Of a stretch of DNA of 22,134 nt, positions 1-22,134 are shown in pieces. Under the pieces are notes generated by a model. The model was not told the origin of the DNA. It worked only from the letters and a program-made list of their open reading frames with translations, and did not search any database. Location of the stretch: assembly GCF_000003605.2 (NCBI RefSeq), contig NW_003148705.1:1-22134 (forward strand), written 5' to 3'. Position 1 is the stretch's first letter; each line of letters opens with the position of its first letter. This stretch comes from Saccoglossus kowalevskii (Eukaryota; Hemichordata; Enteropneusta; Harrimaniidae). The translations under genes were made by a program, and so were the position numbers.

Positions 1-13
1 CACATATTATATT

Positions 14-160
14 GTGTGATGGTGACTGAGATGATAGAAGACTAGCCCATACTTATTATATTGTTTGACGGTGACTGAGATTATAGAAGACTAGCTCATA
101 CATATCATATTGTGTGACGGTGACTGAGATGATAAAAGACCACCCCATACATAATTAATT
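14..160. repeat. HOR block A, copy 1
   Basis: Three diagnostic monomers make 147 bp. The first has GTGTGATGG and ACTTATT. The second has GTTTGACGG, gattatag, agctcatac and ATATCATATT. The third has gataaaag, accacccc and ends ATAATTAATT in place of the usual TATTATATT. The same trio recurs 16 times in the window and serves as the clearest landmark of the higher-order repeat. Confidence 0.93.
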
Positions 161-307
161 GTGTGACGGTGACTGAGATGATAGAAGACTAGCCCATACC
201 TGTTATATTGTGTGACGGTGACTGAGATGATAGAAGAATATGCCATACCTATTATATTGTGTGACGGTGACTGAGATGATAGAAGACTAGCCCATGCATA
301 TTATATT
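161..307. repeat. Three-monomer spacer between A1 and A2
   Basis: Three monomers: one with CCTGTTATATT, one with gaatatgcc, and one ending catgcatatt, which is the usual lead-in to block A. With A1 this makes a 294-bp (6-monomer) step to A2. The CCTGTT and gaatatgcc order matches the tail of E blocks near 1861-1960, so this looks like an E tail reduced to three monomers. Confidence 0.85.
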
Positions 308-454
308 GTGTGATGGTGACTGAGATGATAGAAGACTAGCCCATACTTATTATATTGTTTGACGGTGACTGAGATTATAGAAGACTAGCTCATACATATC
401 ATATTGTGTGACGGTGACTGAGATGATAAAAGACCACCCCATACATAATTAATT
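308..454. repeat. HOR block A, copy 2
   Basis: Same three diagnostic monomers as at 14-160, 294 bp (6 monomers) downstream of it. It is followed by a full-length CD block. Confidence 0.93.
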
Positions 455-1336
455 GTGTGACGGTGACTGAGATGATAGAAGACTAGCCCATACATATTAT
501 ATTTTGTGACCGTCACTGAGATGATAGAAGACTAGCCCATACCTATTATATTGTTTGACGGTGACTGAGATGATAGAAGGCTAGCCCATACCTATTATAT
601 TGTGTGACCGTCACTGAGATGATAGAAGACTAGCCCATACATATTATATTGTGTGGTAGTGACTGAGATAAAAGAAGACTAGACCATACATATTATATTG
701 TTTGACGGTGATTGAGATGATAGAAGACTAGCCCATACATATTATATTGTGTGGCAGTGACTGAGATGATAGAAGACTAGCCCATACCTATTATATTGTG
801 TGACCGTCACTGAGATGATAGAAGACTAGCCCATACATATTATATTGTGTGACCGTCACTGAGATGATAGAAGACTAGCCCATACCTATTATATTGTTTG
901 ACGGTGACTGAGATGATAGAAGAATAGCCCATACCTATTATATTGTTTGATGGTGACTGAGATGATAGGAGAATAGGCCATACCTATTATATTGTGTGAC
1001 AGTGACTGAGATGATAAAAGACTAGCCCATACCTATTATATTGTGTGACGGTGGCTGAGATGATAGAAGACCAGCCCATACATATTATATTGTGTGGCAG
1101 TGACTGAGATGATAGAAGACTAGCCCATACCTATGATATTGTGTGACGGTGACTGAGATGATAGAAGAATAGACCATACCTATTATATTGTGTGACGGTG
1201 ACTGAGATGATAGAAGACCAGCCCATACATATTATATTGTGTGACGGTGACTGAAATGATAGAAGACTAGCCCATACATATTATATTGTGTGACGGTGAC
1301 TGAGATGATAAAAGACTAGCCCATACCTATTATATT
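455..1336. repeat. HOR block CD, copy 1, full length (18 monomers)
   Basis: This is the reference CD block. Palindromic GTGACCGTCAC lies in monomers 2, 4, 8 and 9 (starts 506, 604, 800, 849). Other marks in order: GTGGTAG or GACAG (5), GTGATTG (6), GTGTGGCAG (7), gaatagccc (10), GTTTGATGG with ataggagaatagg (11), gataaaag (12), GGTGGCTG (13), GGCAG with CCTATGATATT (14), gaatagacc (15), gaccagccc (16), CTGAAATG (17), gataaaag (18). The unusual ataggag and gaatagacc variants are shared with 9864-10647. Confidence 0.9.
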
Positions 1337-1630
1337 GTGTGATGGTGACTGAGATTATAGAAGACTAACTCATACGTATTATATTGTGTGACAGTGACTG
1401 AGATGATAGAAGATCAGCCCATACATATTATATTGTATGACGGTGACTGAGATGATAGAAGACCAGCCCATACCTATTATATTGTTTGATGGTGACTTAG
1501 ATTATAGAAGACTAGCCCATACATATTATATTGTGAAACGGTGACTGAAACGATAGAAGACTATCCCATACATATTATATTGTGTGGTAGTGACTGAGAT
1601 AAAAGAAGACTAGCCCATACCTATTATATT
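1337..1630. repeat. HOR block B, copy 1 (6 monomers)
   Basis: Diagnostic order: GTGTGATGG with gattatag and CATACGTATT; GACAG with gatcagccc; GTATGACGG with gaccag; GTTTGATGG with gattatag; GTGAAACGG with ctgaaacg (starts 1533); GTGTGGTAG with gataaaag. The next monomer begins ATGTGACGG, which always marks the B/E border. Confidence 0.9.
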
Positions 1631-2218
1631 ATGTGACGGTGACTGAGATGATAGAAGACCAGCCCATACGTATTATATTGTGTGACGGTGACTGAGATGA
1701 TAGAAGACTAGCCTATGCATATTATATTGTGTTATGGTGACTGAGATGATAGGTGACTAGCCCAAATGTATTATATTGTGTGATGGTGACTGCGTTGATA
1801 AAAGACCAGCCCATACGTATTATATTGTTTGACGGTGACTGAGATTATAGAAGACTAGCCCATACCTGTTATATTGTGTGACGGTGATTGAGATGATAGA
1901 GGAATATGCCATACCTATTATATTGTGTGACGGTGACTGAGATGATAGAAGACTAGCCCATGCATATTATATTGTGTGATGGTGACTGAGATGATAGAAG
2001 ACTAGCCCATACATATTATATTGTGTGATGGTGACTGAGATGATAGAAGACTAGCCCATACATATTATATTGTGTGACGGTGACTGAGATGATAGAAGAC
2101 TAGCCCATACATATTATATTGTGTGACGGTGACTGAGATGATAGAAGAATAGGCCATACATATTATATTGTGTGACGGTGACTGAGATGATAGAAGACTA
2201 GCCCATGCATATTATATT
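1631..2218. repeat. HOR block E, copy 1, shortened (12 monomers)
   Basis: Starts with the ATGTGACGG monomer. It contains the E landmark pair GTGTTATGG with ataggtgac, then GACTGCGTTG with gataaaag (1729-1826), followed by CCTGTT and gaggaatatgcc monomers, and ends with catgcatatt before the next A. It is six monomers shorter than the E blocks at 11824 and 13588. Confidence 0.86.
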
Positions 2219-2365
2219 GTGTGACGGTGACTGAGATGATAGAAGACTAGCCCATACTAATTATATTGTTTGATGGTGACTGAGATTATAGAAGACTAGC
2301 TCATACATATCATATTGTGTGACGGTGACTGAGATGATAAAAGACCACCCCATACATAATTTATT
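2219..2365. repeat. HOR block A, copy 3, variant
   Basis: The A trio with private changes. The first monomer has GTGTGACGG and ACTAATT rather than GTGTGATGG and ACTTATT. The second starts GTTTGATGG, and the third ends ATAATTTATT. ACTAATT is shared only with the A copy at 10844, which points to a long-range relationship. Confidence 0.9.
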
Positions 2366-3052
2366 GTGTGACGGTGACTGAGATGATAGAAGACTAGCCC
2401 ATACATATTATATTTTGTGACCGTCACTGAGATGATAGAAGACTAGCCCATACCTATTATATTGTTTGACGGTGACTGAGATGATAGAAGACTAGCCCAT
2501 ACCTATTATATTGTGTGACCGTCACTGAGATGATAGAAGACTAGCCCATACATATTATATTGTGTGACAGTGGCTGAGATGATAGAAGACTAGGCCATAC
2601 ATATTATATTGTTTGACGGTGATTGAGATGATAGAAGACTAGCCCATACATATTATATTGTGTGAGCAGTGACTGAGATGATAGAAGACTAGCCCATACC
2701 TATTATATTGTGTGATGATGACTGAGATGATAGAAGACCAGCCCATACATATTATATTGTGTGGCAGTGACTGAGATGATAGAAGACTAGCCCATACATA
2801 TTATATTGTGTGACGGTGACTGAGATGATAGAAGACCAGCCCATACATATTATATTGTTTGACGGTGACTGAGATGATAGAAGACCAGCCCATACATATT
2901 ATATTGTGTGGCAGTGACTGAGATGATAGAAGACTAGCCCATACATATTATATTGTGTGACGGTGACTGAGATGATAGAAGACCAGCCCATACCTATTAT
3001 ATTGTTTGACGGTGACTGAGATTATAGAAGACTAGCCCATACATATTATATT
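2366..3052. repeat. Truncated CD block with local expansion
   Basis: CD monomers 1-7 are present, with palindromes at 2417 and 2515 and a CAGTGGCTG change at 2562. The array then becomes a local alternation of GTGTGGCAG and gaccagccc monomers (2710-3052). The monomer at 2660-2709 is 50 bp because it reads GTGTGAGCAGTG, one base more than GTGTGGCAGTG. It is one of three indels in the window. Confidence 0.85.
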
Positions 3053-3444
3053 GTGTGACGGTGACTGAGATGATAGAAGAATATGCCATACCTATTATAT
3101 TGTGTGACGGTGACTGAGATGATAGAAGAATTGGCCATACCTATTATATTGTGTGACGGTGACTGAGATGATAGAAGAATATGCCATACCTATTATATTG
3201 TGTGACGGTGACAGAGATGATAGAAGACGAGTCCATACATATTATATTGCGTGACGGTGACTGAGATGATAGAAGAATATGCCATACCTATTATATTGTG
3301 TGACGGTGACTGAGATGATAGAAGAATAGGCCATACCTATTATATTGTGTGACGGTGACTGAGATGATAGAAGAATAGGCCATACCTATTATATTGGGTG
3401 ACGGTGACTGAGATGATAGAAGACTAGCCCATACCTATTATATT
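3053..3444. repeat. Block F, copy 1: gaatatgcc/gaatagg run (8 monomers)
   Basis: Eight monomers mostly carrying gaatatgcc or gaataggcc at bases 27-35, with gacgagtcc at about 3228, ATTGCGTGACGG at about 3250 and TTGGGTGACGG near 3395 as private marks. The same marks recur exactly 1,323 bp downstream. Confidence 0.86.
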
Positions 3445-3591
3445 GTGTGTTGGTGACTGAGATGATAGAAGACTAGCCCATACTTATTATATTGTTTGAC
3501 GGTGACTGAGATTATAGAAGACTAGCTCATACATATCATATTGTGTGACGGTGAATGAGATGATAAAAGACCACCCCATACATAAATAATT
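3445..3591. repeat. HOR block A, copy 4, decayed ending
   Basis: First monomer starts GTGTGTTGG and the third has GTGAATGAG and ends ATAAATAATT. GTGTGTTGG and GTGAATGAG are shared with the A copy 1,323 bp downstream, showing common descent by a segmental duplication. Confidence 0.9.
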
Positions 3592-4375
3592 GTGTGACGG
3601 TGACTGAGATGATAGAAGACTAGCCCATACATATTATATTTTGTGACCGTCACTGAGATGATAGAAGACTAGCCCATACCTATTATATTGTTTGACGGTG
3701 ACTGAGATGATAGAATACTAGCCCATACCTATTATATTGTGTGACCGTCACTGAGATGATAGAAGACTAGCCCATACATATTATATTGTGTGACAGTGAC
3801 TGAGATGATAGAAGACTAGGCCATACATATTACATTGTTTGACGGTGATTGAGATGATAGAAGACTAGCCCATACATATTATATTGTGTGGCAGTGACTG
3901 AGATGATAGAAGACGAGCCCATACCTATTATATTGTGTGACCGTCACTGAGATGATAGAAGACTAGCCAATACCTATTATATTGTTTGACGGTGACAGAG
4001 ATGATAGAAGACCAGCCCATACATATTATATTGTGTGACGGGGACTGAGTTGAAAGAAGACTAGGCCATACATATTATATTGTGTGACGGTTACTGAGAT
4101 GAAAGAAGACTAGCCCATACATATTATATTGTGTGATGATGACTGAGATGATAGAAGACCAGCCCATACATATTATATTGTGTGATGATGACTGAGATGA
4201 TAGAAGACCAGCCCATACATATTATATTGTGTGGCAGTGACTGAGATGATAGAAGACTAGCCCATACATATTATATTGTGTGACGGTGACTGAGATGATA
4301 GAAGACCAGCCCATACCTATTATATTGTTTGACGGTGACTGAGATTATAGAAGACTAGCCCATACATATTATATT
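3592..4375. repeat. Truncated CD block, partner of 2366-3052
   Basis: CD monomers 1-8 are recognisable, with palindromes at 3643, 3741 and 3937, a gaatactag change and TATTACATT. Then come gtgacagag (3984) and two unusually divergent monomers: GGGGACTGAGTTGAAAG at 4033 and GGTTACTGAGATGAAAG at 4082. Two GTGTGATGATG monomers (4131, 4180) and the GGCAG/gaccag/gattatag trio lead into the next F block. Confidence 0.85.
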
Positions 4376-4767
4376 GTGTGACGGTGACTGAGATGATAGA
4401 AGAATATGCCATAATTATTATATTGTGTGACGGTGACTGAGATGATAGAAGAATAGGCCATACCTATTATATTGTGTGACGGAGACTGAGATGATAGAAG
4501 AATATGCCATACCTATTATATTGTGTGACGGTGACAGAGATGATAGAAGACGAGTCCATACATATTATATTGCGTGACGGTGACTGAGATGATAGAAGAA
4601 TATGCCATACCTATTATATTGTGTGACGGTGACTGAGATGATAGAAGAATAGGCCATACCTATTATATTGTGTGACGGTGACTGAGATGATAGAAGAATA
4701 GGCCATACCTATTATATTGGGTGACGGTGACTGAGATGATAGAAGACTAGCCCATACCTATTATATT
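4376..4767. repeat. Block F, copy 2 (8 monomers)
   Basis: Nearly the same as 3053-3444 at a 1,323-bp offset, including gacgagtcc, ATTGCGTGACGG and TTGGGTGACGG. Private changes include ATAATTATT in the first monomer and GGAGACTGAG near 4481. Confidence 0.87.
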
Positions 4768-4914
4768 GTGTGTTGGTGACTGAGATGATAGAAGACTAGC
4801 CCATACTTATTATATTGTTTGACGGTGACTGAGATTATAGAAGACTAGCTCATACATATCATATTGTGTGACGGTGAATGAGATGATAAAAGACCACCCC
4901 ATACATAAAAAATT
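4768..4914. repeat. HOR block A, copy 5, decayed ending
   Basis: Shares GTGTGTTGG and GTGAATGAG with copy 4. The last monomer ends ATAAAAAATT, a further step away from ATAATTAATT. Confidence 0.9.
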
Positions 4915-5796
4915 GTGTGACGGTGACTGAGATGATAGAAGACTAGCCCATACATATTATATTTTGTGACCGTCACTGAGATGATAGAAGACTAGCCCAT
5001 ACCTATTATATTGTTTGACGGTGACTGAGATGATAGAATACTAGCCCATACCTATTATATTGTGTGACCGTCACTGAGATGATAGAAGACTAGCCCATAC
5101 ATATTATATTGTGTGACAGTGACTGAGATGATAGAAGACTAGGCCATACATATTACATTGTTTGACGGTGATTGAGATGATAGAAGACTAGCCCATACAT
5201 ATTATATTGTGTGGCAGTGACTGAGATGATAGAAGACGAGCCCATACCTATTATATTGTGTGACCGTCACTGAGATGATAGAAGACTAGCCCATACATAT
5301 TATATTGTGTGACCGTCACTGAGATGATAGAAGACTAGCCCATACCTATTATATTGTTTGACGGTGACTGAGATGATAGAAGAATAGCCCATACCTATTA
5401 TATTGTTTGACAGTGACTGAGATGATAGAAGAATAGGCCATACCTATTATATTGTGTGACGGTGACAGAGATGATAAAAGACTAGCCCATACCTATTATA
5501 TTGTGTGACGGTGGCTGAGATGATAGAAGACCAGCCCATACATATTATATTGTGTGGCAGTGACTGAGATGATAGAAGACTAGCCCATACCTATGATATT
5601 GTGTGACGGTGACTGAGATGATAGAAGAATAGGCCATACCTATTATATTGTGTGACGGTGACTGAGATGATAGAAGACCAGCCCATACATATTATATTGT
5701 GTGACGGTGACTGAAATGATAGAAGACTAGCCCATACATATTAAATTGTGTGACGGTGACTGAGATGATTAAAGACTAGCCCATACCTATTATATT
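4915..5796. repeat. HOR block CD, copy at full length (18 monomers)
   Basis: All 18 CD monomers in the reference order. Palindromes start at 4966, 5064, 5260 and 5309, the same 98-196-49 bp spacing as in copy 1. Its first half shares gaatactag, TATTACATT and gacgagccc with 3592-3983. Private changes include gatgattaaag and TATTAAATT near the end. Confidence 0.9.
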
Positions 5797-6090
5797 GTGT
5801 GATGGTGACTGAGATTATAGAAGACTAGCTCATACGTATTATATTGTGTGACAGTGACTGAGATGATAGAAGATCAGCCCAAACATATTATATTGTATGA
5901 CGGTGACTGAGATGATAGAAGACCAGCCCATACCTATTATATTGTTTGATGGTGACTGAGATTATAGAAGACTAGCCCATACATATTATATTATGAAACG
6001 GTGACTGAAACGATAGAAGACTAGCCCATACATATTATATTGTGTGGTAGTGACTGAGATAATAGAAGACTAGCCCATACCTATTATATT
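5797..6090. repeat. HOR block B, copy 2
   Basis: Six B monomers in the standard order. The fifth, normally GTGAAACGG, reads ATGAAACGG at 5993. The distance from the A ending to this monomer is identical to that in the first full unit (1,088 bp). Confidence 0.9.
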
Positions 6091-6825
6091 ATGTGACGGT
6101 GACTGAGATGATAGAAGACCAGCCCATACATATTATATTGTGTGACGGTGACTGTGATGATAGAAGAATAGGCCATACCTATTATATTGTGTGACGGTGA
6201 CTGAGATGATAGAAGACTAGCCCATACGTATTATATTGTGTGACGGTGACTGAGATGATAGAAGACAAGCCCATACCTATTATATTGTGTGACGGTGACT
6301 GAGATGATAGAAGACTAGCCTACACATTTTATATTGTGTGACGGTGACTGAGATGATAGAAGACTAGCCTATACATATTATATTGTGTGATGGTGACTGA
6401 TATGATAGAAGACTAGCCCATACATATTATATTGTGTGACGGTGACTGAGATGATAGAAGACTAGCCCATACCTATTATATTGTGTGACGGTGACTGAGA
6501 TGATAGAAGACTAGCCCATACGTATTATATTGTTTGACGGTGACTGAGATGATAGAAGACTAGCTCATACATATTATATTGTGTGACGGTGACTGAGATG
6601 CTAGAAGAATAGGCCATACCTATTATATTGTGTGATGGTGACTGAGATGATAGAAGACTAGCCCATACATATTATATTGTGTGACGGTGACTGAGATGAT
6701 AGAAGAATATGCTATACCTACTATATTGTGTGACGGTGACTGAGATGATAGAAGAATATGCCATACCTATTATATTGTGTGACGGTGACTGAGATGATAG
6801 AAGACTAGCCCATGCATATTATATT
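6091..6825. repeat. HOR block E variant (15 monomers)
   Basis: Begins with ATGTGACGG and GACTGTGATG monomers like other E blocks, but lacks the GTGTTATGG/GCGTTG pair. It carries TACACATTTTATATT (near 6321), a variant related to TATACATTTT at 17251 and 20534, and ends with gaatatgctatacctac (near 6706-6722), gaatatgcc and catgcat monomers. Confidence 0.83.
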
Positions 6826-6972
6826 GTGTGATGGTGACTGAGATGATAGAAGACTAGCCCATACTTATTATATTGTTTGACGGTGACTGAGATTATAGAA
6901 GACTAGCTCATACATATCATATTGTGTGACGGTGACTGAGATGATAAAAGACCACCCCATACATAATTAATT
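6826..6972. repeat. HOR block A, copy 6
   Basis: Standard A trio with ACTTATT, ATATCATATT and ATAATTAATT. It is followed by a G block instead of CD. Confidence 0.93.
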
Positions 6973-7462
6973 GTGTGACGGTGACTGAGATGATAGAAGA
7001 CTAGCTCATACCTATTATATTGTGTGACCGTCACTGAGATGATAAAAGAATAGGCCATACATATTATATTGTGTGACGGTGACTGAGATGATAGAAGACT
7101 AGCCCATACATATTATATTGTGTGACGGTGACTGAGATTATAGAAGACTAGCCCATACATATTATATTGTTTGACGGTGATTGAGATGATAGAAGACTAG
7201 CCCATACATATTATATTGTGTGACGGTCACTGAGATGATAGAAGACTAGCCCATACCTATTATATTGTGTGACGGTGACTGAGATGATAGAAGACTAGCC
7301 CATACATATTATATTGTGTGACGGTGACTGAGATGATAGAAGAATATGCTATACCTACTATATTGTGTGACGGTGACTGAGATGATAGAAGAATATGCCA
7401 TACCTATTATATTGTGTGACGGTGACTGAGATGATAGAAGACTAGCCCATGCATATTATATT
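6973..7462. repeat. Block G, copy 1 (10 monomers)
   Basis: Order: agctcatacc; GTGACCGTCAC with gataaaagaatagg (7024); two plain monomers, the second with gattatag; GTTTGACGGTGATTG; GTGACGGTCAC (7220); plain; gaatatgctatacctac (7348); gaatatgcc; catgcat. It matches the 12-monomer G blocks at 18145 and 21232 minus two monomers. The first monomer is the junction: it joins a plain start to the agctcatacc end of the third monomer of those copies. Confidence 0.86.
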
Positions 7463-7609
7463 GTGTGATGGTGACTGAGATGATAGAAGACTAGCCCATA
7501 CTTATTATATTGTTTGACGGTGACTGAGATTATAGAAGACTAGCTCATACATATCATATTGTGTGACGGTGACTGAGATGATAAAAGACCACCCCATACA
7601 TAATTAATT
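7463..7609. repeat. HOR block A, copy 7
   Basis: Standard A trio, 637 bp (13 monomers) after copy 6. The A-G pair is therefore a tandem duplication in origin. Confidence 0.93.
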
Positions 7610-8392
7610 GTGTGACGGTGACTGAGATGATAGAAGACTAGCCCATACATATTATATTTTGTGACCGTCACTGAGATGATAGAAGACTAGCCCATACCTA
7701 TTATATTGTTTGACGGTGACTGAGATGATAGAAGGCTAGCCCATACCTATTATATTGTGTGACCGTCACTGAGATGATAGAAGACTAGCCCATACATATT
7801 ATATTGTGTGACAGTGACTGAGATGATAGAAGACTAGGCCATACATATTATATTGTTTGACGGTGATTGAGATGATAGAAGACTAGCCCATACATATTAT
7901 ATTGTGTGGCAGTGACTGAGATGATAGAAGACTAGCCATACCTATTATATTGTGTGACCGTCACTGAGATGATAGAAGACTAGCCCATACATATTATATT
8001 GTGTGACCGTCACTGAGATGATAGAAGACTAGCCCATACCTATTATATTGTTTGACGGTGACTGAGATGACAGAAGAATAGCCCATACCTATTATATTGT
8101 TTGACGGTGGCTGAGATGATAGAAGACCAGCCCATACATATTATATTGTGTGGCAGTGACTGAGATGATAGAAGACTAGCCCATACCTATGATATTGTGT
8201 GACGGTGACAGAGATGATAGAAGAATAGGCCATACCTATTATATTGTGTGACGGTGACTGAGATGATAGAAGACCAGCCCATACATATTATATTGTGTGA
8301 CGGTGACTGAAATGATAGAAGACTAGCCCATACATATTATATTGTGTGATGGTGACTATGATGATAAAAGACTAGCCCATACCTATTATATT
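7610..8392. repeat. HOR block CD, 16 monomers, one base short
   Basis: Palindromes at 7661, 7759, 7954 and 8003. Two monomers are missing: the GTTTGACGG start of monomer 11 runs into the GGTGGCTG of monomer 13, forming a hybrid near 8100. The GGCAG monomer at 7904-7951 is 48 bp because it has ctagccatac, one C fewer than ctagcccatac. Its last monomer reads GACTATGATG, shared with 10991-11529. Confidence 0.88.
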
Positions 8393-8686
8393 GTGTGATG
8401 GTGACTGAGATTATAGAAGACTAGCTCATACGTATTATATTGTGTGACAGTGACTGAGATGATAGAAGATCAGCCCATACATATTATATTGTATGACGGT
8501 GACTGAGATGATAGAAGACCAGCCCATACCTATTATATTGTTTGATGGTGACTGAGATTATAGAAGACTAGCCCATACATATTATATTGTAAAACGGTGA
8601 CTGAAACGATAGAAGACAAGCCCATACATATTATATTGTGTGGTAGTGACTGAGATGATAGAAGACTAGCCCATACCTATTATATT
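8393..8686. repeat. HOR block B, copy 3
   Basis: Six B monomers in standard order. The fifth reads GTAAAACGG (8589), a variant shared with the B copies at 11530 and 13392, which groups the three as one lineage. Confidence 0.9.
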
Positions 8687-9716
8687 ATGTGACGGTGACT
8701 GAGATGATAGAAGACCAGCCCATACATATTATATTGTGTGACGGTGACTGTGATGATAGAAGAATAGGCCATACCTATTATATTGTGTGACGGTGACTGA
8801 GATGATAGAAGACTAGCCCATACGTATTATATTGTGTGACGGTGAATGAGATGATAGAAGACAAGCCCATACCGATTATATTGAGTGACGGTGACTGAGA
8901 TGATAGAAGACCAGCCCATACGATATTATATTGTGTGACGGTGAGTGAGATGATAGAAGACCAGCCCATACCTATTATATTGTGTGATGGTGACTGAGAT
9001 GATAGAAGACTAGCCCATACGTATTATATTGTGTGACGGTGAATGAGATGATAGAAGACAAGCCCATACCGATTATATTGAGTGACGGTGACTGAGATGA
9101 TAGAAGACCAGCCCATACATATTATATTGTGTGACGGTGACTGAGATGATAGAAGACTAGCCTATGCATATTATATTGTGTTATGGTGACTGAGATGATA
9201 GGTGACTAGCCCATATGTATTATATTGTGTGATGGTGACTGCGTTGATAAAAGACCAGCCCATACCTATTATATTGTGTGACGGTGAGTGAGATGATAGA
9301 AGACCAGCCCATACCTATTATATTGTGAGACGGTGACTGAGATGATAGAAGAATATGTCATACCTATTATATTGTGTGACGGTGACTGAGATGATAGAAG
9401 ACTAGCCTATACATATTATATTGTGTGATGGTGACTGAGATGATAGAAGACTAGCCCATACATATTATATTGTGTGACGGTCACTGAGATGATAGAAGAC
9501 TAGCCCATACCTATTATATTGTGTGACGGTGACTGAGATGATAGAAGACTAGCCCATACGTATTATATTGTTTGACGGTGACTGAGATTATAGAAGACTA
9601 GCCCATACCTGTTATATTGTGTGACGGTGACTGTAATGATAGAAGAATAGGCCACACCTATTATATTGTATGACGGTGACTGAGATGATAGAAGACTAGC
9701 CCATGCATATTATATT
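8687..9716. repeat. HOR block E, long form (21 monomers plus 1 base)
   Basis: Contains ATGTGACGG, GACTGTG, gacaagccc with CCGATT (twice), GTGTTATGG (9178), GCGTTG, GTGAGTGAG, GTGAGACGG with gaatatgtc, GTGACGGTCAC (9474), CCTGTT and GGCCACACC monomers, then catgcat. The monomer at 8883-8932 is 50 bp because it reads CATACGATATTATATT. The gtgaatgag/gacaagccc/CCGATT group appears twice 196 bp apart (from 8835 and from 9031), a four-monomer local duplication. Confidence 0.86.
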
Positions 9717-9863
9717 GTGTGATGGTGACTGAGATGATAGAAGACTAGCCCATACTTATTATATTGTTTGACGGTGACTGAGATTATAGAAGACTAGCTC
9801 ATACATATCATATTGTGTGACGGTGACTGAGATGATAAAAGACCACCCCATACATAATTAATT
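9717..9863. repeat. HOR block A, copy 8
   Basis: Standard A trio preceded by the usual catgcat monomer. Confidence 0.93.
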
Positions 9864-10647
9864 GTGTGACGGTGACTGAGATGATAGAAGACTAGCCCAT
9901 ACCTATTATATTGTTTGACGGTGACTGAGATGATAGAAGACTAGCCCATACCTATTATATTGTGTGACCGTCACTGAGATGATAGAAGAATAACCCATAC
10001 ATATTATATTGTGTGACAGTGACTGAGATGATAGAAGACTAGACCATACATATTATATTGTTTGATGGTGATTGAGATGATAGAAGACTAGCCCATACAT
10101 ATTATATTGTGTGGCAGTGACTGAGATGATAGAAGACTAGCCCATACCTATTATATTGTGTGACCGTCACTGAGATGATAGAAGACTAGCCCATACATAT
10201 TATATTGTGTGACCGTCACTGAGATGATAGAAGACTAGCCCATACCTATTATATTGTTTGACGGTGACTGAGATGATAGAAGAATAGCCCATACCTATTA
10301 TATTGTTTGATGGTGACTGAGATGATAGGAGAATAGGCCATACCTATTATATTGTGTGACAGTGACTGAGATGATAAAAGACTAGCCCATACATATTATA
10401 TTGTGTGACGGTGGCTGAGATGATAGAAGACCAGCCCATACATATTATATTGTGTGGCAGTGACTGAGATGATAGAAGACTAGCCCATACCTATGATATT
10501 GTGTGACGGTGACTGAGATGATAGAAGAATAGACCATACCTATTATATTGTGTGACGGTGACTGAGATGATAGAAGACCAGCCCATACATATTATATTGT
10601 GTGACGGTGACTGAAATGATAGAAGACTAGCCCATACATATTATATT
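9864..10647. repeat. HOR block CD, 16 monomers, joined to E without B
   Basis: Matches copy 1 (455-1336) including ataggagaatagg and gaatagacc, but lacks monomer 2 (TTTTGTGACCGTCAC) and the last monomer (18). Palindromes remain at 9964, 10160 and 10209. It runs from the CTGAAATG monomer straight into the E monomer with GCGTTG. Confidence 0.88.
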
Positions 10648-10843: not shown

Positions 10844-10990
10844 GTGTGACGGTGACTGAGATGATAGAAGACTAGCCCATACTAATTATATTGTTTGATG
10901 GTGACTGAGATTATAGAAGACTAGCTCATACATATCATATTGTGTGACGGTGACTGAGATGATAAAAGACCACCCCATACATAATTAATT
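10844..10990. repeat. HOR block A, copy 9, variant
   Basis: Carries GTGTGACGG and ACTAATT in its first monomer and GTTTGATGG in its second, as in copy 3 at 2219, but keeps the standard ATAATTAATT ending. Confidence 0.92.
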
Positions 10991-11529: not shown

Positions 11530-11823
11530 GTGTGATGGTGACTGAGATTATAGAAGACTAGCTCATACGTATTATATTGTGTGACAGTGACTGAGATGAT
11601 AGAAGATCAGCCCATTCATATTATATTGTATGACGGTGACTGAGATGATAGAAGACCAGCCCATACCTATTATATTGTTTGATGGTGACTGAGATTATAG
11701 AAGAATAGCCCATACATATTATATTGTAAAACGGTGACTGAAACGATAGAAGACTAGCCCATACATATTATATTGTGTGGTAGTGACTGAGATAATAGAA
11801 GACTAGCCCATACCTATTATATT
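11530..11823. repeat. HOR block B, copy 4
   Basis: Six B monomers. Private CATTCATATT follows gatcagccc, the fourth monomer has gaatagccc, and the fifth reads GTAAAACGG (11726). Confidence 0.9.
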
Positions 11824-12705
11824 ATGTGACGGTGACTGAGATGATAGAAGACCAGCCCATACATATTATATTGTGTGACGGTGACTGTGATGATAGAAGA
11901 ATAGGCCATACCTATTATATTGTGTGACGGTGACTGAGATGAGAGAAGACTAGCCCATACGTATTATATTGTGTGACGGTGACTGAGATGATAGAAGACA
12001 AGCCCATACCGATTATATTGTGTGACGGTGACTGAGATGATAGAAGACCAGCCCATACATATTATATTGTGTGACGGTGACTGACATGATAGAAGACTAG
12101 CCTATGCATATTATATTGTGTTATGGTGACTGAGATGATAGGTGACTAGCCCATATGTATTATATTGTGTGATGGTGACTGCGTTGATAAAAGACCAGCC
12201 CATACCTATTATATTGTGTGACGGTGAGTGAGATGATAGAAGACCAGCCCATACCTATTATATTGTGAGACGGTGACTGAGATGATAGAAGAATATGTCA
12301 TACCTATTATATTGTGTGACGGTGACTGAGATGATAGAAGACTAGCCTATACATATTATATTGTGTGACGGTGACTGAGATGATAGAAGACTAGCCTATA
12401 CATATTATATTGTGTGATGGTGACTGAGATGATAGAAGACTAGCCCATACATATTATATTGTGTGACGGTGACTGAGATGATAGAAGACTAGCCCATACC
12501 TATTATATTGTGTGACGGTGACTGAGATGATAGAAGACTAGCCCATATGTATTATATTGTTTGACGGTGACTGAGATTATAGAAGACTAGCCCATACCTG
12601 TTATATTGTGTGACGGTGACTGTGATGATAGAAGAATAGGCCACACCTATTATATTGTATGACGGTGACTGAGATGATAGAAGACTAGCCCATGCATATT
12701 ATATT
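11824..12705. repeat. HOR block E, 18 monomers
   Basis: A good reference E block: ATGTGACGG; GACTGTG; CATACGT; gacaag with CCGATT; gaccag; CTGACATG with cctatgcat; GTGTTATGG (12118); GCGTTG; GTGAGTGAG; GTGAGACGG with gaatatgtc; two cctatac monomers; GTGTGATGG; plain; CATATGT; gattatag with CCTGTT; GGCCACACC; GTATGACGG with catgcat. Near-identical to 13588-14469, differing for example by gagagaag near 11941. Confidence 0.9.
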
Positions 12706-12852
12706 GTGTGATGGTGACTGAGATGATAGAAGACTAGCCCATACTTATTATATTGTTTGACGGTGACTGAGATTATAGAAGACTAGCTCATACATATCAT
12801 ATTGTGTGACGGTGACTGAGATGATAAAAGACCACCCCATACATAATTAATT
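12706..12852. repeat. HOR block A, copy 10
   Basis: Standard A trio. Confidence 0.93.
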
Positions 12853-13391
12853 GTGTGACGGTGACTGAGATGATAGAAGTCTAGCCCATACATATTATAT
12901 TTTGTGACCGTCACTGAGATGATAGAAGACTAGCCCATACCTATTATATTGTTTGACGGTGACTGAGATGATAGAAGACTAGCCCATACCTATTATATTG
13001 TGTGACCGTCACTGAGATGATAGAAGACTAGCCCATACATATTATATTGTGTGACAGTGACTGAGATGATAGAAGACTAGACCATACATATTATATTGTT
13101 TGACGGTGATTGAGATGATAGAAGACTAGCCCATACATATTATATTGTGTGGCAGTGACTGAGATGATAGAAGACTAGCCCATACCTATGATATTGTGTG
13201 ACGGTGACTGAGATGATAGAAGAATAGGCCATACCTATTATATTGTGTGACGGTGACTGAGATGATAGAAGACCAGCCCATACATATTATATTGTGTGAC
13301 GGTGACTGAAATGATAGAAGACTAGCCCATACATATTATATTGTGTGACGGTGACTGAGATGATAAAAGACTAGCCCATACCTATTATATT
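12853..13391. repeat. HOR block CD, compact form (11 monomers), different junction
   Basis: Monomers 1-6, then a GGCAG monomer that starts as number 7 and ends CCTATGATATT like number 14, then 15-18. Seven monomers are missing, as at 10991, but the junction is one monomer earlier and palindromes 8 and 9 are both lost. Palindromes remain at 12904 and 13002. The first monomer has the rare gaagtctag. Confidence 0.89.
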
Positions 13392-13587
13392 GTCTGATGG
13401 TGACTGAGATTATAGAAGACCAGCCCATACGTATTATATTGTTTGATGGTGACTGAGATTATAGAAGAATAGCCCATACATATTATATTGTAAAACGGTG
13501 ACTGAAACGATAGAAGACTAGCCCATACATATTATATTGTGTGGTAGTGACTGAGATAATAGAAGACTAGCCCATACCTATTATATT
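13392..13587. repeat. HOR block B, copy 5, contracted (4 monomers)
   Basis: The first monomer reads GTCTGATGG, gattatag, gaccagccc, CATACGTATT, so it mixes marks of B monomers 1 and 3. B monomers 2 and 3 (gatcag, GTATGACGG) are gone. The rest, with gaatagccc and GTAAAACGG (13490), matches copy 4. Confidence 0.88.
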
Positions 13588-14469
13588 ATGTGACGGTGAC
13601 TGAGATGATAGAAGACCAGCCCATACATATTATATTGTGTGACGGTGACTGTGATGATAGAAGAATAGGCCATACCTATTATATTGTGTGACGGTGACTG
13701 AGATGATAGAAGACTAGCCCATACGTATTATATTGTGTGACGGTGACTGAGATGATAGAAGACAAGCCCATACCGATTATATTGTGTGACGGTGACTGAG
13801 ATGATAGAAGACCAGCCCATACATATTATATTGTGTGACGGTGACTGACATGATAGAAGACTAGCCTATGCATATTATATTGTGTTATGGTGACTGAGAT
13901 GATAGGTGACTAGCCCATATGTATTATATTGTGTGATGGTGACTGCGTTGATAAAAGACCAGCCCATACCTATTATATTGTGTGACGGTGAGTGAGATGA
14001 TAGAAGACCAGCCCATACCTATTATATTGTGAGACGGTGACTGAGATGATAGAAGAATATGTCATACCTATTATATTGTGTGACGGTGACTGAGATGATA
14101 GAAGACTAGCCTATACATATTATATTGTGTGACGGTGACTGAGATGATAGAAGACTAGCCTATACATATTATATTGTGTGATGGTGACTGAGATGATAGA
14201 AGACTAGCCCATACATATTATATTGTGTGACGGTGACTGAGATGATAGAAGACTAGCCCATACCTATTATATTGTGTGACGGTGACTGAGATGATAGAAG
14301 ACTAGCCCATACGTATTATATTGTTTGACGGTGACTGAGATTATAGAAGACTAGCCCATACCTGTTATATTGTGTGACGGTGACTGTGATGATAGAAGAA
14401 TAGGCCACACCTATTATATTGTATGACGGTGACTGAGATGATAGAAGACTAGCCCATGCATATTATATT
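13588..14469. repeat. HOR block E, 18 monomers, partner of 11824-12705
   Basis: Repeats the 11824 block monomer for monomer at a 1,764-bp offset, with GTGTTATGG at 13882. It has CATACGT where the partner has CATATGT, and gatagaag where the partner has gagagaag. Confidence 0.9.
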
Positions 14470-14616
14470 GTGTGATGGTGACTGAGATGATAGAAGACTA
14501 GCCCATACTTATTATATTGTTTGACGGTGACTGAGATTATAGAAGACTAGCTCATACATATCATATTGTGTGACGGTGACTGAGATGATAAAAGACCACC
14601 CCATACATAATTAATT
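14470..14616. repeat. HOR block A, copy 11
   Basis: Standard A trio, 1,764 bp after copy 10. Confidence 0.93.
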
Positions 14617-15253
14617 GTGTGACGGTGACTGAGATGATAGAAGACTAGCCCATGCATATTATATTGTGTGATGGTGACTGAGATGATAGAAGTCTAGCCC
14701 ATACATATTATATTTTGTGACCGTCACTGAGATGATAGAAGGCTAGCCCATACCTATTATATTGTTTGACGGTGACTGAGATGATAGAAGACTAGCCCAT
14801 ACCTATTATATTGTGTGACCGTCACTGAGATGATAAAAGACTAGCCCATATATATTATATTGTGTGACAGTGACTGAGATGATAGAAGACTAGACCATAC
14901 ATATTATATTGTTTGACGGTGATTGAGATGATAGAAGACTAGCCCATACATATTATATTGTGTGGCAGTGACTGAGATGATAGAAGAATATGCCATACCT
15001 ATGATATTGTGTGACGGTGACTGAGATGATAGAAGAATAGGCCATACCTATTATATTGTGTGACGGTGACTGAGATGATAGAAGACGAGTCCATACATAT
15101 TATATTGTGTGACGGTGACTGAAATGATAGAAGAATATGCCATACATATTATATTGTGTGACGGTGACTGAGATGATAAAAGACTAGGCCATACCTATTA
15201 TATTGTCTGACGGTGACTGAGATGATAGAAGACTAGCTCATACCTATTATATT
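14617..15253. repeat. Mosaic CD block (13 monomers)
   Basis: The first monomer is duplicated: one copy ends catgcat, the next has the rare gaagtctag shared with 12853. Palindromes lie at 14717 and 14815. The CD order then continues as 7/14 hybrid, 15, 16, 17, 18 and a B1-like monomer. However, the bases at 27-35 are replaced by F-type words: gaatatgcc (14960 monomer), gacgagtcc (15058), gaatatgcc on the CTGAAATG monomer (15107) and ctaggcc on the gataaaag monomer (15156). This looks like CD backbone overprinted with F variants. Confidence 0.82.
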
Positions 15254-15890: not shown

Positions 15891-15988
15891 GTGTGATGGT
15901 GACTGAGATTATAGAAGACTAGCTCATACATATCATATTGTGTGACGGTGACTGAGATGATAAAAGACCACCCCATACATAATTAATT
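15891..15988. repeat. HOR block A, copy 12, one monomer short
   Basis: Only two monomers. The first begins GTGTGATGG like A monomer 1 but continues gattatag, agctcatac, ATATCATATT like A monomer 2. Exactly 49 bp is lost, with the junction inside the conserved GGTGACTGAGAT stretch. Confidence 0.91.
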
Positions 15989-16821
15989 GTGTGACGGTGA
16001 CTGAGATGATAGAAGACTAGCCCATACATATTATATTTTGTGACCGTCACTGAGATGATAGAAGACTAGCCCATACCTATTATATTGTTTGACGGTGACT
16101 GAGATGATAGAATACTAGCCCATACCTATTATATTGTGTGACCGTCACTGAGATGATAGAAGACTAGCCCATACATATTATATTGTGTGACAGTGACTGA
16201 GATGATAGAAGACTAGGCCATACATATTACATTGTTTGACGGTGATTGAGATGATAGAAGACTAGCCCATACATATTATATTGTGTGGCAGTGACTGAGA
16301 TGATAGAAGACTAGCCCATACCTATTATATTGTGTGACCGTCACTGAGATGATAGAAGACTAGCCCATACATATTATATTGTGTGACCGTCACTGAGATG
16401 ATAGAAGACTAGCCCATACCTATTATATTGTTTGACGGTGACTGAGATGATAGAAGAATAGGCCATACCTATTATATTGTGTGACGGTGACAGAGATGAT
16501 AAAAGACTAGCCCATACCTATTATATTGTGTGACGGTGGCAGAGATGATAGAAGACCAGCCCATACACATTATATTGTGTGGCAGTGACTGAGATGATAG
16601 AAGACTAGCCCATACCTATGATATTGTGTGACGGTGACTGAGATGATAGAAGAATAGGCCATACCTATTATATTGTGTGACGGTGACTGAGATGATAGAA
16701 GACCAGCCCATACATATTATATTGTGTGACGGTGACTGAAATGATAGAAGACTAGCCCATACATATTATATTGTGTGACGGTGACTGAGATGATAAAAGA
16801 CTAGCCCATACCTATTATATT
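15989..16821. repeat. HOR block CD, 17 monomers
   Basis: Palindromes at 16040, 16138, 16334 and 16383 in standard spacing. Monomers 10 and 11 are merged (GTTTGACGG start with gaataggcc end). Marks gaatactag and TATTACATT group it with the blocks at 4915 and 18880. A private GGTGGCAGAG replaces GGTGGCTGAG. Confidence 0.89.
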
Positions 16822-17115
16822 GTGTGATGGTGACTGAGATTATAGAAGACTAGCTCATACGTATTATATTGTGTGACAGTGACTGAGATGATAGAGGATC
16901 AGCCCATACATATTATATTGTATGACGGTGACTGAGATGATAGAAGACCAGCCCATACCTATTATATTGTTTGATGGTGACTGAGATTATAGAAGACTAG
17001 CCCATACATATTATATTGTGAAACGGTGACTGAAACGATAGAAGACTAGCCCATACATATTATATTGTGTGGTAGTGACTGAGATAATAGAAGACTAGCC
17101 CATACCTATTATATT
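16822..17115. repeat. HOR block B, copy 6
   Basis: Six B monomers in standard order with GTGAAACGG at 17018. A private gaggatcag replaces gaagatcag. Confidence 0.9.
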
Positions 17116-17997
17116 ATGTGACGGTGACTGAGATGATAGAAGACCAGCCCATACATATTATATTGTGTGACGGTGATTGTGATGATAGAAGAATAGGCCA
17201 TACCTATTATATTGTGTGACGGTGACTGAGATGATAGAAGACTAGCCTATACATTTTATATTGTGTGACGGTGACTGAGTTGATAGAAGACTAGCCTATA
17301 CATATTATATTGTGTGATGGTGACTGAGATGATAGAAGACTAGCCCATACATATTATATTGTGTGACGGTGACTGAGATGATAGAAGACTAGCCCATACG
17401 TATTATATTGTTTGACGGTGACTGAGATGATAGAAGACTAGCCCATACATATTATATTGTGTGACGGTGACTGAGATGATAGAAGACTAGCCTATACATA
17501 TTATATTGTGTGATGGTGACTGAGATGATAGAAGACTAGCCCATACATATTATATTGTGTGACGGTGACTGAGATGATAGAAGACTAGCCCATACGTATT
17601 ATATTGTTTGACGGTGACTGAGATGATAGAAGACTAGCCCATACATATTATATTGTGTGACGGTGACTGAGATGATAGAAGAATATGCCATACGTATTAT
17701 ATTGTGTGACGGTGACTGAGATGATAGAAGACTAGCCCATACATATTATATTGTGTGACGGTGACTGAGATGATAGAAGAATAGGCCATACCTATTATAT
17801 TGTGTGATGATGACTGAGATGATAGAAGACTAGCCCATACATATTATATTGTGTGACGGTGACTGAGATGATAGAAGAATATGCTATACCTACTATATTG
17901 TGTGACGGTGACTGAGATGATAGAAGAATATGCCATACCTATTATATTGTGTGACGGTGACTGAGATGATAGAAGACTAGCCCATGCATATTATATT
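17116..17997. repeat. HOR block E variant (18 monomers)
   Basis: Starts ATGTGACGG, then GTGATTGTGATG. It lacks GTGTTATGG/GCGTTG, as at 6091. TATACATTTT lies at 17249. A group of cctatac, GTGTGATGG, plain, CATACGT and GTTTGACGG monomers appears twice (about 17262-17455 and 17458-17651), a four-monomer duplication. It ends with gaatatgctatacctac (near 17876-17892), gaatatgcc and catgcat. Confidence 0.84.
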
Positions 17998-18144
17998 GTG
18001 TGATGGTGACTGAGATGATAGAAGACTAGCCCATACTTATTATATTGTTTGACGGTGACTGAGATTATAGAAGACTAGCTCATACATATCATATTGTGTG
18101 ACGGTGACTGAGATGATAAAAGACCACCCCATACATAATTAATT
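17998..18144. repeat. HOR block A, copy 13
   Basis: Standard A trio leading into a G block. It lies 3,087 bp before copy 15. Confidence 0.93.
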
Positions 18145-18732
18145 GTGTGACGGTGACTGAGATGATAGAAGACTAGCCCATACATATTATATTGTGTGAC
18201 CGTCACTGAGATGATAGAAGACTAGCCCATACCTATTATATTGTTTGACGGTGACTGAGATGATACAAGACTAGCTCATACCTATTATATTGTGTGACCG
18301 TCACTGAGATGATAAAAGAATAGGCCATACATATTATATTGTGTGACGGTGACTGAGATGATAGAAGACTAGCCCATACATATTATATTGTGTGACTGTG
18401 ACTGAGATTATAGAAGACTAGCCCATACATATTATATTGTTTGACGGTGATTGATATGATAGAAGACTAGCCCATACATATTATATTGTGTGACGGTCAC
18501 TGAGATGATAGAAGACTAGCCCATACCTATTATATTGTGTGACGGTGACTGAGATGATAGAAGACTAGCCCATACATATTATATTGTGTGACGGTGACTG
18601 ATATGATAGAAGAATATGCTATACCTACTATATTGTGTGACGGTGACTGAGATGATAGAAGAATATGCCATACCTATTATATTGTGTGACGGTGACTGAG
18701 ATGATAGAAGACTAGCCCATGCATATTATATT
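18145..18732. repeat. Block G, copy 2 (12 monomers)
   Basis: Reference G block: plain; GTGACCGTCAC (18196); GTTTGACGG with gatacaag and agctcatacc; GTGACCGTCAC with gataaaag (18294); plain; GTGACTGTGAC with gattatag (18390 monomer); GTGATTGATATG; GTGACGGTCAC (18490); plain; CTGATATG with gaatatgctatacctac; gaatatgcc; catgcat. Confidence 0.88.
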
Positions 18733-18879
18733 GTGTGATGGTGACTGAGATGATAGAAGACTAGTACATACTTATTATATTGTTTGACGGTGACTGAGAT
18801 TATAGAAGACTAGCTCATACATATCATATTGTGTGACGGTGACTGAGATGATAAAAGACCACCCCATACATAATTAATT
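18733..18879. repeat. HOR block A, copy 14
   Basis: Standard A trio, 735 bp (15 monomers) after copy 13. The private ctagtacatac in the first monomer replaces ctagcccatac. Confidence 0.92.
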
Positions 18880-19761
18880 GTGTGACGGTGACTGAGATGA
18901 TAGAAGACTAGCCCATACATATTATATTTTGTGACCGTCACTGAGATGATAGAAGACTAGCCCATACCTATTATATTGTTTGACGGTGACTGAGATGATA
19001 GAATACTAGCCCATACCTATTATATTGTGTGACCGTCACTGAGATGATAGAAGACTAGCCCATACATATTATATTGTGTGACAGTGACTGAGATGATAGA
19101 AGACTAGGCCATACATATTACATTGTTTGACGGTGATTGAGATGATAGAAGACTAGCCCATACATATTATATTGTGTGGCAGTGACTGAGATGATAGAAG
19201 ACTAGCCCATACCTATTATATTGTGTGACCGTCACTGAGATGATAGAAGACTAGCCCATACATATTATATTGTGTGACCGTCACTGAGATGATAGAAGAC
19301 TAGCCCATACCTATTATATTGTTTGACGGTGACTGAGATGATAGAAGAATAGCTCATACCTATTATATTGTTTGACGGTGACTGAGATGATAGAAGAATA
19401 GGCCATACCTATTATATTGTGTGACGGTGACAGAGATGATAAAAGACTAGCCCATACCTATTATATTGTGTGACGGTGGCTGAGATGATAGAAGACCAGC
19501 CCATACATATTATATTGTGTGGCAGTGACTGAGATGATAGAAGACTAGCCCATACCTATGATATTGTGTGACGGTGACTGATATGATAGAAGAATAGGCC
19601 ATACCTATTATATTGTGTGACGGTGACTGAGATGATAGAAGACCAGCCCATACATATTATATTGTGTGACGGTGACTGAAATGATAGAAGACTAGCCCAT
19701 ACATATTATATTGTGTGACGGTGACTGAGATGATAAAAGACTAGCCCATACCTATTATATT
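18880..19761. repeat. HOR block CD, full length (18 monomers)
   Basis: All 18 CD monomers in order. Palindromes at 18931, 19029, 19225 and 19274. Private changes are gaatagctc in monomer 10 and CTGATATG in monomer 15. Carries gaatactag and TATTACATT. Confidence 0.91.
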
Positions 19762-20055
19762 GTGTGATGGTGACTGAGATTATAGAAGACTAGCTCATAC
19801 GTATTATATTGTGTGACAGTGACTGAGATGATAGAAGATCAGCCCATACATATTATATTGTATGACGGTGACTGAGATGATAGAAGACCAGCCCATACCT
19901 ATTATATTGTTTTATGGTGACTGAGATTATAGAAGACTAGCCCATACATATTATATTGTGAAACGGTGACTGAAACGATAGAAGACTAGCCCATACATAT
20001 TATATTGTGTGGTAGTGTCTGAGATAATAGAAGACTAGCCCATACCTATTATATT
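19762..20055. repeat. HOR block B, copy 7
   Basis: Six B monomers in order, GTGAAACGG at 19958. Private GTTTTATGG replaces GTTTGATGG, and GTAGTGTCTGAG replaces GTAGTGACTGAG. Confidence 0.9.
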
Positions 20056-21084
20056 ATGTGACGGTGACTGAGATGATAGAAGACCAGCCCATACATATTA
20101 TATTGTGTGACGGTGACTGTGATGATAGAAGAATAGGCCATACCTATTATATTGTGTGACGGTGACTGAGATGATAGAAGACTAGCCCATACGTATTATA
20201 TTGTGTGACGGTGACTGAGATGATAGAAGACAAGCCCATACATATTATATTGTGTGACGGTGACTGAGATGATAGAAGACTAGCCTATGCATATTATATT
20301 GTGTTATGGTGACTGAGATGATAGGTGACTAGCCCATATGTATTATATTGTGAGATGGTGACTGCATTGATAAAAGACCTGCCCATACCTATTATATTGT
20401 GTGACGATGACTGAGATGATAGAAGACCAGCCCATACCTATTATATTGTGAGACGGTGACTGAGATAATAGAAGAATATGCCATACCTATTATATTGTGT
20501 GACGGTGACTGAGATGATAGAAGACTAGCCTATACATTTTATATTGTGTGACGGTGACTGAGATGATAGAAGACTAGCCTATACATATTATATTGTGTGA
20601 TGGTGACTGAGATGATAGAAGACTAGCCCATACATATTATATTGTGTGACGGTGACTGAGATGATAGAAGACTAGCCCATACGTATTATATTGTTTGACG
20701 GTGACTGAGATGATAGAAGACTAGCCCATACATATTATATTGTGTGACGGTGACTGAGATGATAGAAGAATATGCCATACCTATTATATTGTGTGACGGT
20801 GACTGAGATGATAGAAGACTAGCCCATACATATTATATTGTGTGACGGTGACTGAGATGATAGAAGAATAGGCCATACCTATTATATTGTGTGATGGTGA
20901 CTGAGATGATAGAAGACTAGCCCATACATATTATATTGTGTGACGGTGACTGAGATGATAGAAGAATATGCTATACCTACTATATTGTGTGACGGTGACT
21001 GAGATGATAGAAGAATATGCCATACCTATTATATTGTGTGACGGTGACTGAGATGATAGAAGACTAGCCCATGCATATTATATT
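20056..21084. repeat. HOR block E, long form (21 monomers)
   Basis: Has both E sub-types: GTGTTATGG (20301) followed by GTGAGATGG with GACTGCATTG (a change from GCGTTG) and gacctgccc, then GTGAGACGG with gaatatgcc. After these comes the TATACATTTT sub-type (20531) found at 17249. It ends with gaatatgctatacctac (near 20963-20979), gaatatgcc and catgcat. It therefore links the two kinds of E block. Confidence 0.86.
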
Positions 21085-21231
21085 GTGTGATGGTGACTGA
21101 GATGATAGAAGACTAGCCCATACTTATTATATTGTTTGACGGTGACTGAGATTATAGAAGACTAGCACATACATATCATATTGTGTGACGGTGACTGAAA
21201 TGATAAAAGACCACCCCATACATAATTAATT
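21085..21231. repeat. HOR block A, copy 15
   Basis: A trio with private ctagcacatac in monomer 2 and CTGAAATG in monomer 3. Confidence 0.92.
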
Positions 21232-21819
21232 GTGTGACGGTGACTGAGATGATAGAAGACTAGCCCATACATATTATATTGTGTGACCGTCACTGAGATG
21301 ATAGAAGACTAGCCCATACCTATTATATTGTTTGACGGTGACTGAGATGATACAAGACTAGCTCATACCTATTATATTGTGTGACCGTCACTGAGATGAT
21401 AAAAGAATAGGCCATACATATTATATTGTGTGACGGTGACTGAGATGATAGAAGACTAGCCCATACATATTATATTGTGTGACTGTGACTGAGATTATAG
21501 AAGACTAGCCCATACATATTATATTGTTTGACGGTGATTGATATGATAGAAGACTAGCCCATACATATTATATTGTGTGACGGTCACTGAGATGATAGAA
21601 GACTAGCCCATACCTATTATATTGTGTGACGGTGACTGAGATGATAGAAGACTAGCCCATACATATTATATTGTGTGACGGTGACTGAGATGATAGAAGA
21701 ATATGCTATACCTACTATATTGTGTGACGGTGACTGAGATGATAGAAGAATATGCCATACCTATTATATTGTGTGACGGTGACTGAGATGATAGAAGACT
21801 AGCCCATGCATATTATATT
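21232..21819. repeat. Block G, copy 3 (12 monomers)
   Basis: Repeats 18145-18732 at a 3,087-bp offset, including gatacaag (21348), GTGACTGTGAC (21477 monomer), GTGATTGATATG and GTGACGGTCAC (21577). Palindromes GTGACCGTCAC at 21283 and 21381. Confidence 0.9.
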
Positions 21820-21966
21820 GTGTGATGGTGACTGAGATGATAGAAGACTAGCCCATACTTATTATATTGTTTGATGGTGACTGAGATTATAGAAGACTAG
21901 CTCATACATATCATATTGTGTGACGGTGACTGAGATGATAAAAGACCACCCCATACATAATTAATT
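21820..21966. repeat. HOR block A, copy 16
   Basis: Standard A trio with GTTTGATGG starting monomer 2, 735 bp after copy 15. Confidence 0.92.
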
Positions 21967-22134
21967 GTGTGACGGTGACTGAGATGATAGAAGACTAGCC
22001 CATACATATTACATTTTGTGACCGTCACTGAGATGATAGAAGACTAGCCCATACCTATTATATTGTTTGACGGTGACTGAGATGATAGAAGACTAGCCCA
22101 TACCTATTATATTGTGTGACCGTCACTGAGATGA
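21967..22134. repeat. Start of another CD block, cut by window end
   Basis: CD monomers 1-3 and part of 4, with palindromes at 22018 and 22116 and a TTACATTTTG change. It lacks the gaatactag mark of its 3,087-bp partner at 18880, so the copies diverge here or exchange ended before this point. Confidence 0.88.

Follow-up and report, generated by a model that had tools for sequence, protein, structure and literature searches.

How does a tandem repeat with a monomer of only 49 bp come to keep tens of different monomers in order? The question is raised by a contig of the hemichordate Saccoglossus kowalevskii (NW_003148705.1; C3887 among the contigs of the assembly). The window, by which we mean the whole 22,134-bp stretch analysed, is that entire contig (1..22134), and it is a single head-to-tail 49-bp array. 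An initial annotation, made from the letters alone, had described it as a 49-bp satellite with a block-ordered higher-order repeat (HOR). The reading that we prefer, at a probability of about 0.8, is that this is a noncoding array whose monomers first drifted apart and whose blocks were then copied and trimmed by unequal exchange into an HOR of variable unit length.

The array itself is plain. Tandem Repeats Finder (TRF) reports in its main row 451.7 copies with 89% matches at 2-22134, all but the first base, and both contig ends lie inside the array with no flanks:

1..22134, + strand: 49-bp tandem array, the whole contig, in one orientation, with TRF consensus ACATATTATATTGTGTGACGGTGACTGAGATGATAGAAGACTAGCCCAT.

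Our own wrap-around alignment gives 453 rows, 169 of them distinct; the first (1 base) and the last (33 bases) are partial. The monomer length is almost constant. Successive monomer starts, the first row not counted, define 451 lengths, of which 448 are 49 bp, two are 50 and one is 48. Over the 453 rows the alignment holds 16 inserted and 15 deleted bases, and 26 of these 31 gap bases come from 13 paired insertion/deletion events in one monomer type, in which TAATTAATTG replaces TATTATATTG. A relaxed monomer pattern (up to three mismatches) matches 442 times forward and not once in reverse. No open reading frame in the window reaches 80 amino acids, and a coding repeat was rejected on that ground. 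Bases 1-4000 of the 22134 have no Rfam match up to E = 1, and a scan of 11600-14700 found no inverted repeats of at least 12.

The monomers follow a conserved order. When they are clustered and written as a string, the same word recurs, roughly ABFHB-CACEIECCA-DAAEDABBJMAJLKADAN-ABOPASBBBBAFV, with different parts missing each time. For threading, in which skips were allowed, we used a ring of 48 monomers whose seed was monomers 385-432 and which was then refined with the entire array. The array scores 530; in 100 shuffles the mean is -489 and the maximum -455. Of the 453 rows, 401 have at most two mismatches to the ring place assigned to them. The ring length of 48 is the longest anchor interval; a 46-monomer interval does equally well in the single-unit test that follows. 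Since the ring had been trained on the whole array, we also took rings from single units, without retraining, and threaded them on outside rows only. They score 269 (339 of 453 rows) and 162.5 (242 rows), whereas the null maxima, from 300 array shuffles and 300 ring-order shuffles, are -333.5 and -268.5. It is the fit that sets the real order apart from the shuffles in this test. The earlier proposal that diagnostic monomers recur in fixed order is thus borne out, both by threading against shuffles and by rings applied outside their own unit.

Identity in the array has two levels. A monomer is 98.0% identical to its assigned place, against 89.4% over all pairs; corresponding monomers of different units are more alike than the monomers within a unit. 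Threading also finds long stretches that follow the ring without interruption:

18525..21464, + strand: longest uninterrupted run in ring order, 60 monomers; it holds the ring seed, and its fit is partly by construction.
4658..6274, + strand: second-longest uninterrupted run, 33 monomers.
198..1667, + strand: uninterrupted run of 30 monomers.

The order is conserved; the unit length is not. Sixteen anchors of the H cluster are separated by 6, 39, 25, 27, 42, 13, 46, 23, 38, 36, 28, 44, 15, 48 and 15 monomers, so that seven of the 15 spacings fall at 36-48 monomers, four at 23-28, three at 13-15 and one at 6. (This anchor list is cluster-based; a looser criterion of at least 46 of 49 columns alike takes in look-alikes.) The idealised unit of 45 monomers put forward in the initial annotation finds no counterpart here: no anchor spacing equals 45, and lag 45 is flat, with a mean identity of 0.896 and 0.98% exact matches, compared with 0.894 and 1.14% over all pairs. 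With no constant number of monomers per unit, the array is an irregular HOR.

A second pair of landmarks gives further intervals. Monomers of the GTGAAACGG type start at 1521, 5981, 8577, 11714, 13478, 17006 and 19946, and, counted from each of them to the third monomer of the block A that comes before it most closely, the distances are, in order, 22, 22, 20, 15, 13, 21 and 22 monomers (1078, 1078, 979, 735, 637, 1029 and 1078 bp, start to start). The interval counts given for this stretch, 22 monomers in three of the seven units and 21, 20, 15 and 13 elsewhere, therefore hold exactly, and the three 22-monomer intervals belong to the units that had been placed at 308, 4768 and 18733. The accompanying figure of 1,088 bp is measured between literal strings (445 to 1533; 18870 to 19958); between monomer starts it becomes 1078 bp, because the two literal strings begin at different monomer positions. 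The literal GTGAAACGG is present in three of the seven monomers of its type, and one-base variants occupy the others, ATGAAACGG in one and GTAAAACGG in three.

Plain autocorrelation is a weak instrument for this array, because the unit length varies and different parts are missing at each recurrence. It had been suggested as the check on higher-order structure. With thresholds from 500 shuffles (maximum over lags 1-300), the check succeeds only in part. Mean identity never reaches the 99% level (0.9058) within the first 60 lags. It rises above the largest shuffle value (0.9072) at lag 285 (0.9118), the sole such lag among the listed lags up to 300. Among the shares of exact matches, that of lag 36 (0.0504) clears the 99% level (0.0494) only, and the highest value in any shuffle, 0.0581, is surpassed at lags 63, 215, 230, 253, 285 and 293.

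How did an ordered array with units of so many lengths arise? The window is largely built of near-identical copies of its own parts: 74 pairs of internal duplicates cover 92.5% of it, and three monomer-shuffled arrays contain none. Of these pairs 45 are listed, with identities of 97.4-100% and a wide variety of offsets; just one of the 45 shows no difference at all. Of the following pairs, all on the + strand, the first four are among the closest:

17413..19047 and 20500..22134, + strand: duplicate pair, offset 63 monomers, 99.3% over 1635 bp; the second copy reaches the contig end.
11648..12879 and 13412..14643, + strand: duplicate pair, offset 36 monomers, 99.8% over 1232 bp.
2781..3968 and 4104..5291, + strand: duplicate pair, offset 27 monomers (a shorter unit form), 99.2% over 1188 bp.
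15898..16461 and 18789..19352, + strand: identical pair, 564 bp, offset 59 monomers.
4664..6322 and 18629..20287, + strand: distant duplicate pair, offset 285 monomers, 98.7% over 1659 bp.
204..1694 and 18629..20119, + strand: distant duplicate pair, offset 376 monomers plus one base, 98.4% over 1491 bp.

The stretch 11648..12879 also holds a run of 12 identical monomers. The duplicate scan skipped most off-register offsets by design, and we checked the register separately with no such filter. For identical words of 30, 40 or 60 bases, every pair offset is 0, 1 or 48 modulo 49. The 49-bp register of the duplicates is therefore real.

Copying of single monomers has left almost no trace. Neighbouring monomers have a mean identity of 0.9004, against 0.8994 for any two; identical neighbours make up 0.9%, and identical monomers 1.15% of all pairs (both partial end rows were dropped for these statistics and for the simulations, leaving 451 of the 453 rows). 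There are no 10-monomer duplicates with an offset under 10. We simulated tandem duplication, deletion and point mutation with varied mean block size, using six replicates for each final setting, in which the mutation rate was coarsely tuned, and ten for each setting with hand-picked rates. Copying of small blocks fails to yield the observed pattern in these simulations. Mean blocks of 1-4 monomers give a long-duplicate coverage of 0.05-0.46, against 0.878 observed, and 10-35% identical neighbours. Mean blocks of 12 are intermediate (coverage 0.48-0.78). Mean blocks of 30-60 give 0.81-0.99, a range that includes the observed value, with hardly any short offsets. The simulations thus speak for events that copy or delete tens of monomers at a time; under this model such blocks dominate and single-monomer copying is nearly absent.

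We propose a history in at least two phases, because no steady setting of the simulation fits all the statistics. In the first phase the monomers would have drifted about 10% apart. In the second, blocks of roughly 13 to 63 monomers would have been copied and trimmed repeatedly in 49-bp register. The cause would be unequal exchange, whether sister chromatids or homologues took part, or else template slippage, which leads to the same result. The product would be an HOR that keeps monomer order while its unit length varies. Unequal crossing-over is among the mechanisms named for satellite amplification and homogenization, and HORs are described as adjacent monomers amplified jointly (PMC5615363 and PMC10048060). 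The origin by unequal exchange given in the initial annotation is thus supported in part: there is higher-order structure, and exchange is its natural source, but a single fixed unit of 45 monomers finds no support. We suppose that the array has no sequence-specific function.

Several results weigh against this history. The steady neutral simulation, at any single setting, never fits all the statistics together, and large simulated blocks produce too many identical pairs (0.014-0.076, observed 0.0115), or else an overall identity or a divergence that is too high. Jump counts in the single-unit threading do not separate real from shuffled order (32 against minima of 31 and 26; 24 against 23 and 17). 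Crossing over inside monomers should leave hybrid monomers at the junctions, yet a hybrid monomer does better than a clean boundary in only eight of 40 cases, and the median breakpoint interval of 28 bp is too wide to tell at most of them. (The 40 junctions correspond to 41 threading jumps, the first rows having been dropped beforehand.) The same pattern could also come from gene conversion, or from circular copies that reinsert.

Two further ideas were set aside. Breakpoints are somewhat denser near the arbitrary monomer boundary, which is no evidence for an exchange hot spot inside the monomer, as the threading itself puts jumps there. Nucleosome phasing (3 × 49 = 147 bp) finds no echo in the array either: lags 3 and 6 are not raised, and WW dinucleotide power is low, 4.9 at 9.8 bp against 366 at 24.5 bp.

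The closest competitor to our reading shares its mechanism. The array could be a long single-locus minisatellite (a variable number tandem repeat, VNTR) with variant repeats, shaped by the same kind of exchange, and not a chromosome-scale satellite; we consider this quite possible, at somewhat under even odds. We scanned the assembly (572,110,611 bases in 4830 contigs). All 442 matches of the relaxed pattern in its readable part are the 442 found in the window alone, with none outside the array contig, and all 89 matches of an exact 31-mer lie there too, as expected of a single locus. However, the contig ends inside the array and so gives neither its true length nor its flanks, and copies more diverged than three mismatches escape the relaxed pattern. 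Copies could also hide in stretches that read N. Among six 10-kb stretches sampled from other contigs, the first 10 kb of C1 and C1000 are wholly N and that of C2 is 71% N, so that claims of genome-wide absence hold for the readable sequence. Satellite arrays are, moreover, commonly absent from assemblies. The name satellite given to the repeat at the outset must be split accordingly: the tandem 49-bp array stands, and its roughly 452 copies lie within the hundreds to thousands of tandem copies by which satellites are recognized, but the label is unproven while every copy found is in one contig.

A selected role, for instance at a centromere, might keep the monomers in order, and HORs are indeed typical of primate centromeres (PMC5615363). 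We think this improbable. Units gain and lose monomers freely, and copies are found in one contig only. CENP-B-box-like sites, scanned with at most one mismatch to what we take to be the relaxed core of the box, number 0 against 0.43 expected, a weak argument given that boxless centromeres exist.

Slightly less probable still is a contaminating nematode satellite. A 49-bp satellite occurs among the eliminated DNA of Toxocara canis, as PMC9894435 states; the monomer length in print is the same, and our repeat is found nowhere else in the assembly. Monomer length is, however, all that is known to agree. A large contaminating satellite would normally leave more than one contig. The mitochondrion of the assembly is of vertebrate type, which, like the telomere-type repeats, bears on the assembly and not on the array contig itself. 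Telomere-type repeats point away from a nematode as well: the pattern matches 78 times forward and 196 times in reverse (reversed control, 16 and 30), and among the listed places TTAGGG-type repeats prevail, with no pure TTAGGC repeat and two that contain a single TTAGGC. A bacterial, viral or plasmid source was also rejected. A query of 2205 of the 22134 bases gave no match to phages or plasmids, and no exact match was found with one 20-letter pattern in viral and genome contigs and a second pattern in genome contigs. In print the monomer was not found: words of 15-18 letters from it gave nothing, and the papers matched by words of 13-14 letters concern unrelated topics, to judge by title and the opening of the abstract, in a collection that lacks most papers of subscription journals.

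That the block order is an assembly artefact of collapsed or mis-joined reads is the least probable alternative, and a very remote one: the contig is pure repeat with no flanks, as such an artefact might be, but the listed duplicates differ in offset and all except one differ in sequence.

How does the array, which we read as block-copied by unequal exchange, compare with known repeats? In human alpha satellite, units have 2 to 34 monomers of about 170 bp (PMC5615363; the 34-mer also in PMC8122249), and corresponding monomers are over 95% alike whereas those of one unit are 70-90% alike (PMC5615363). The array resembles it in having divergent monomers in conserved order and identity at two levels (98% against 89%). 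It differs in monomer length, in having up to 48 monomers between anchors, in units more variable in length than those of a regular HOR, and in having no CENP-B-box-like site. It is thus not an alpha satellite, which has a monomer of about 170 bp and, in part of its monomers, a CENP-B box. Complex HORs are another parallel. PMC5615363 lists them in mouse, swine, bovids, horse, dog, elephant and insects, and describes the monomers that shape them as interspersed, inverted or both, in many cases with extraneous sequence. Like them, the array has higher-order units that depart from a simple regular pattern; unlike them, its copies stand in one orientation and its 49-bp register is unbroken. The depth of the array, called unusual in the initial annotation, can fairly be called so by monomer number when set beside human alpha satellite, but complex HORs are on record from mammals and insects.

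Minisatellites of vertebrates have monomers of 10-100 bp, with variant repeats interspersed along one array. The array falls in this length class, has variant copies in one array and may occupy one locus; it differs in extending over more than 22 kb and in having blocks, tens of monomers long, that keep their order. The array adds a further case of irregular higher-order tandem repeat, and its architecture is of a known kind. Its interest lies chiefly in the block size of exchange. It is also a clean example, which suggests that higher-order structure can be deep with neither a nucleosome-sized monomer nor a primate centromere. Short and well-marked monomers record the sizes of past exchanges, so that a minimum exchange length in tandem DNA becomes measurable.

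A bolder version of our reading can be stated, which we hold to be unlikely. A single locus in a compact genome would carry an HOR of up to 48 monomers, more than the human 34, and its exchanges would nearly always involve tens of monomers at once (about 0.6-3 kb) and only very rarely a single one. If true, the minimum length of an exchange would be set by homology or by repair-tract length and not by monomer size.

Some smaller features of the monomers and of other contigs deserve mention. A common variant, found in 42 monomers, for example at 599-632, has GTGACCGTCAC in place of GTGACGGTGAC; GTGACGGTCAC, its exact reverse complement, stands in four monomers, and GTGACCGTGAC in none. This pair of changes would follow if the core of a short palindrome had flipped.

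The neighbouring contig C3886 (75,304 bp) carries at 1-10000 a different tandem array, with a 36-bp unit in 277 copies that are 92% alike. CpG is almost absent from it (observed/expected 0.04). Internal duplicates take up 32% of the first 10 kb of this contig, against 78% of the first 10 kb of the window. Kinship of the 36-bp unit with the 49-bp monomer was rejected, the best local match being only 6 bases.

The mitochondrial contig, C4830 (17,037 bp), the last of the assembly, has a 141-bp repeat at 1-671 in 4.8 copies (99%). Its first 10 kb, translated with the vertebrate code, contains frames that read as ATP6, COX3, ND3, ND4L, ND4, ND5 and cytochrome b. The order after cytochrome b, at 7491-8470, is unusual: tRNA-Pro and an ND6-like frame lie on the minus strand. 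After these ARAGORN calls tRNAs for Thr, Trp, Asp and Phe, although its 13 calls may include spurious ones. Solved chains of cytochrome c oxidase subunit 3 match the COX3 frame with E 1.7e-129.

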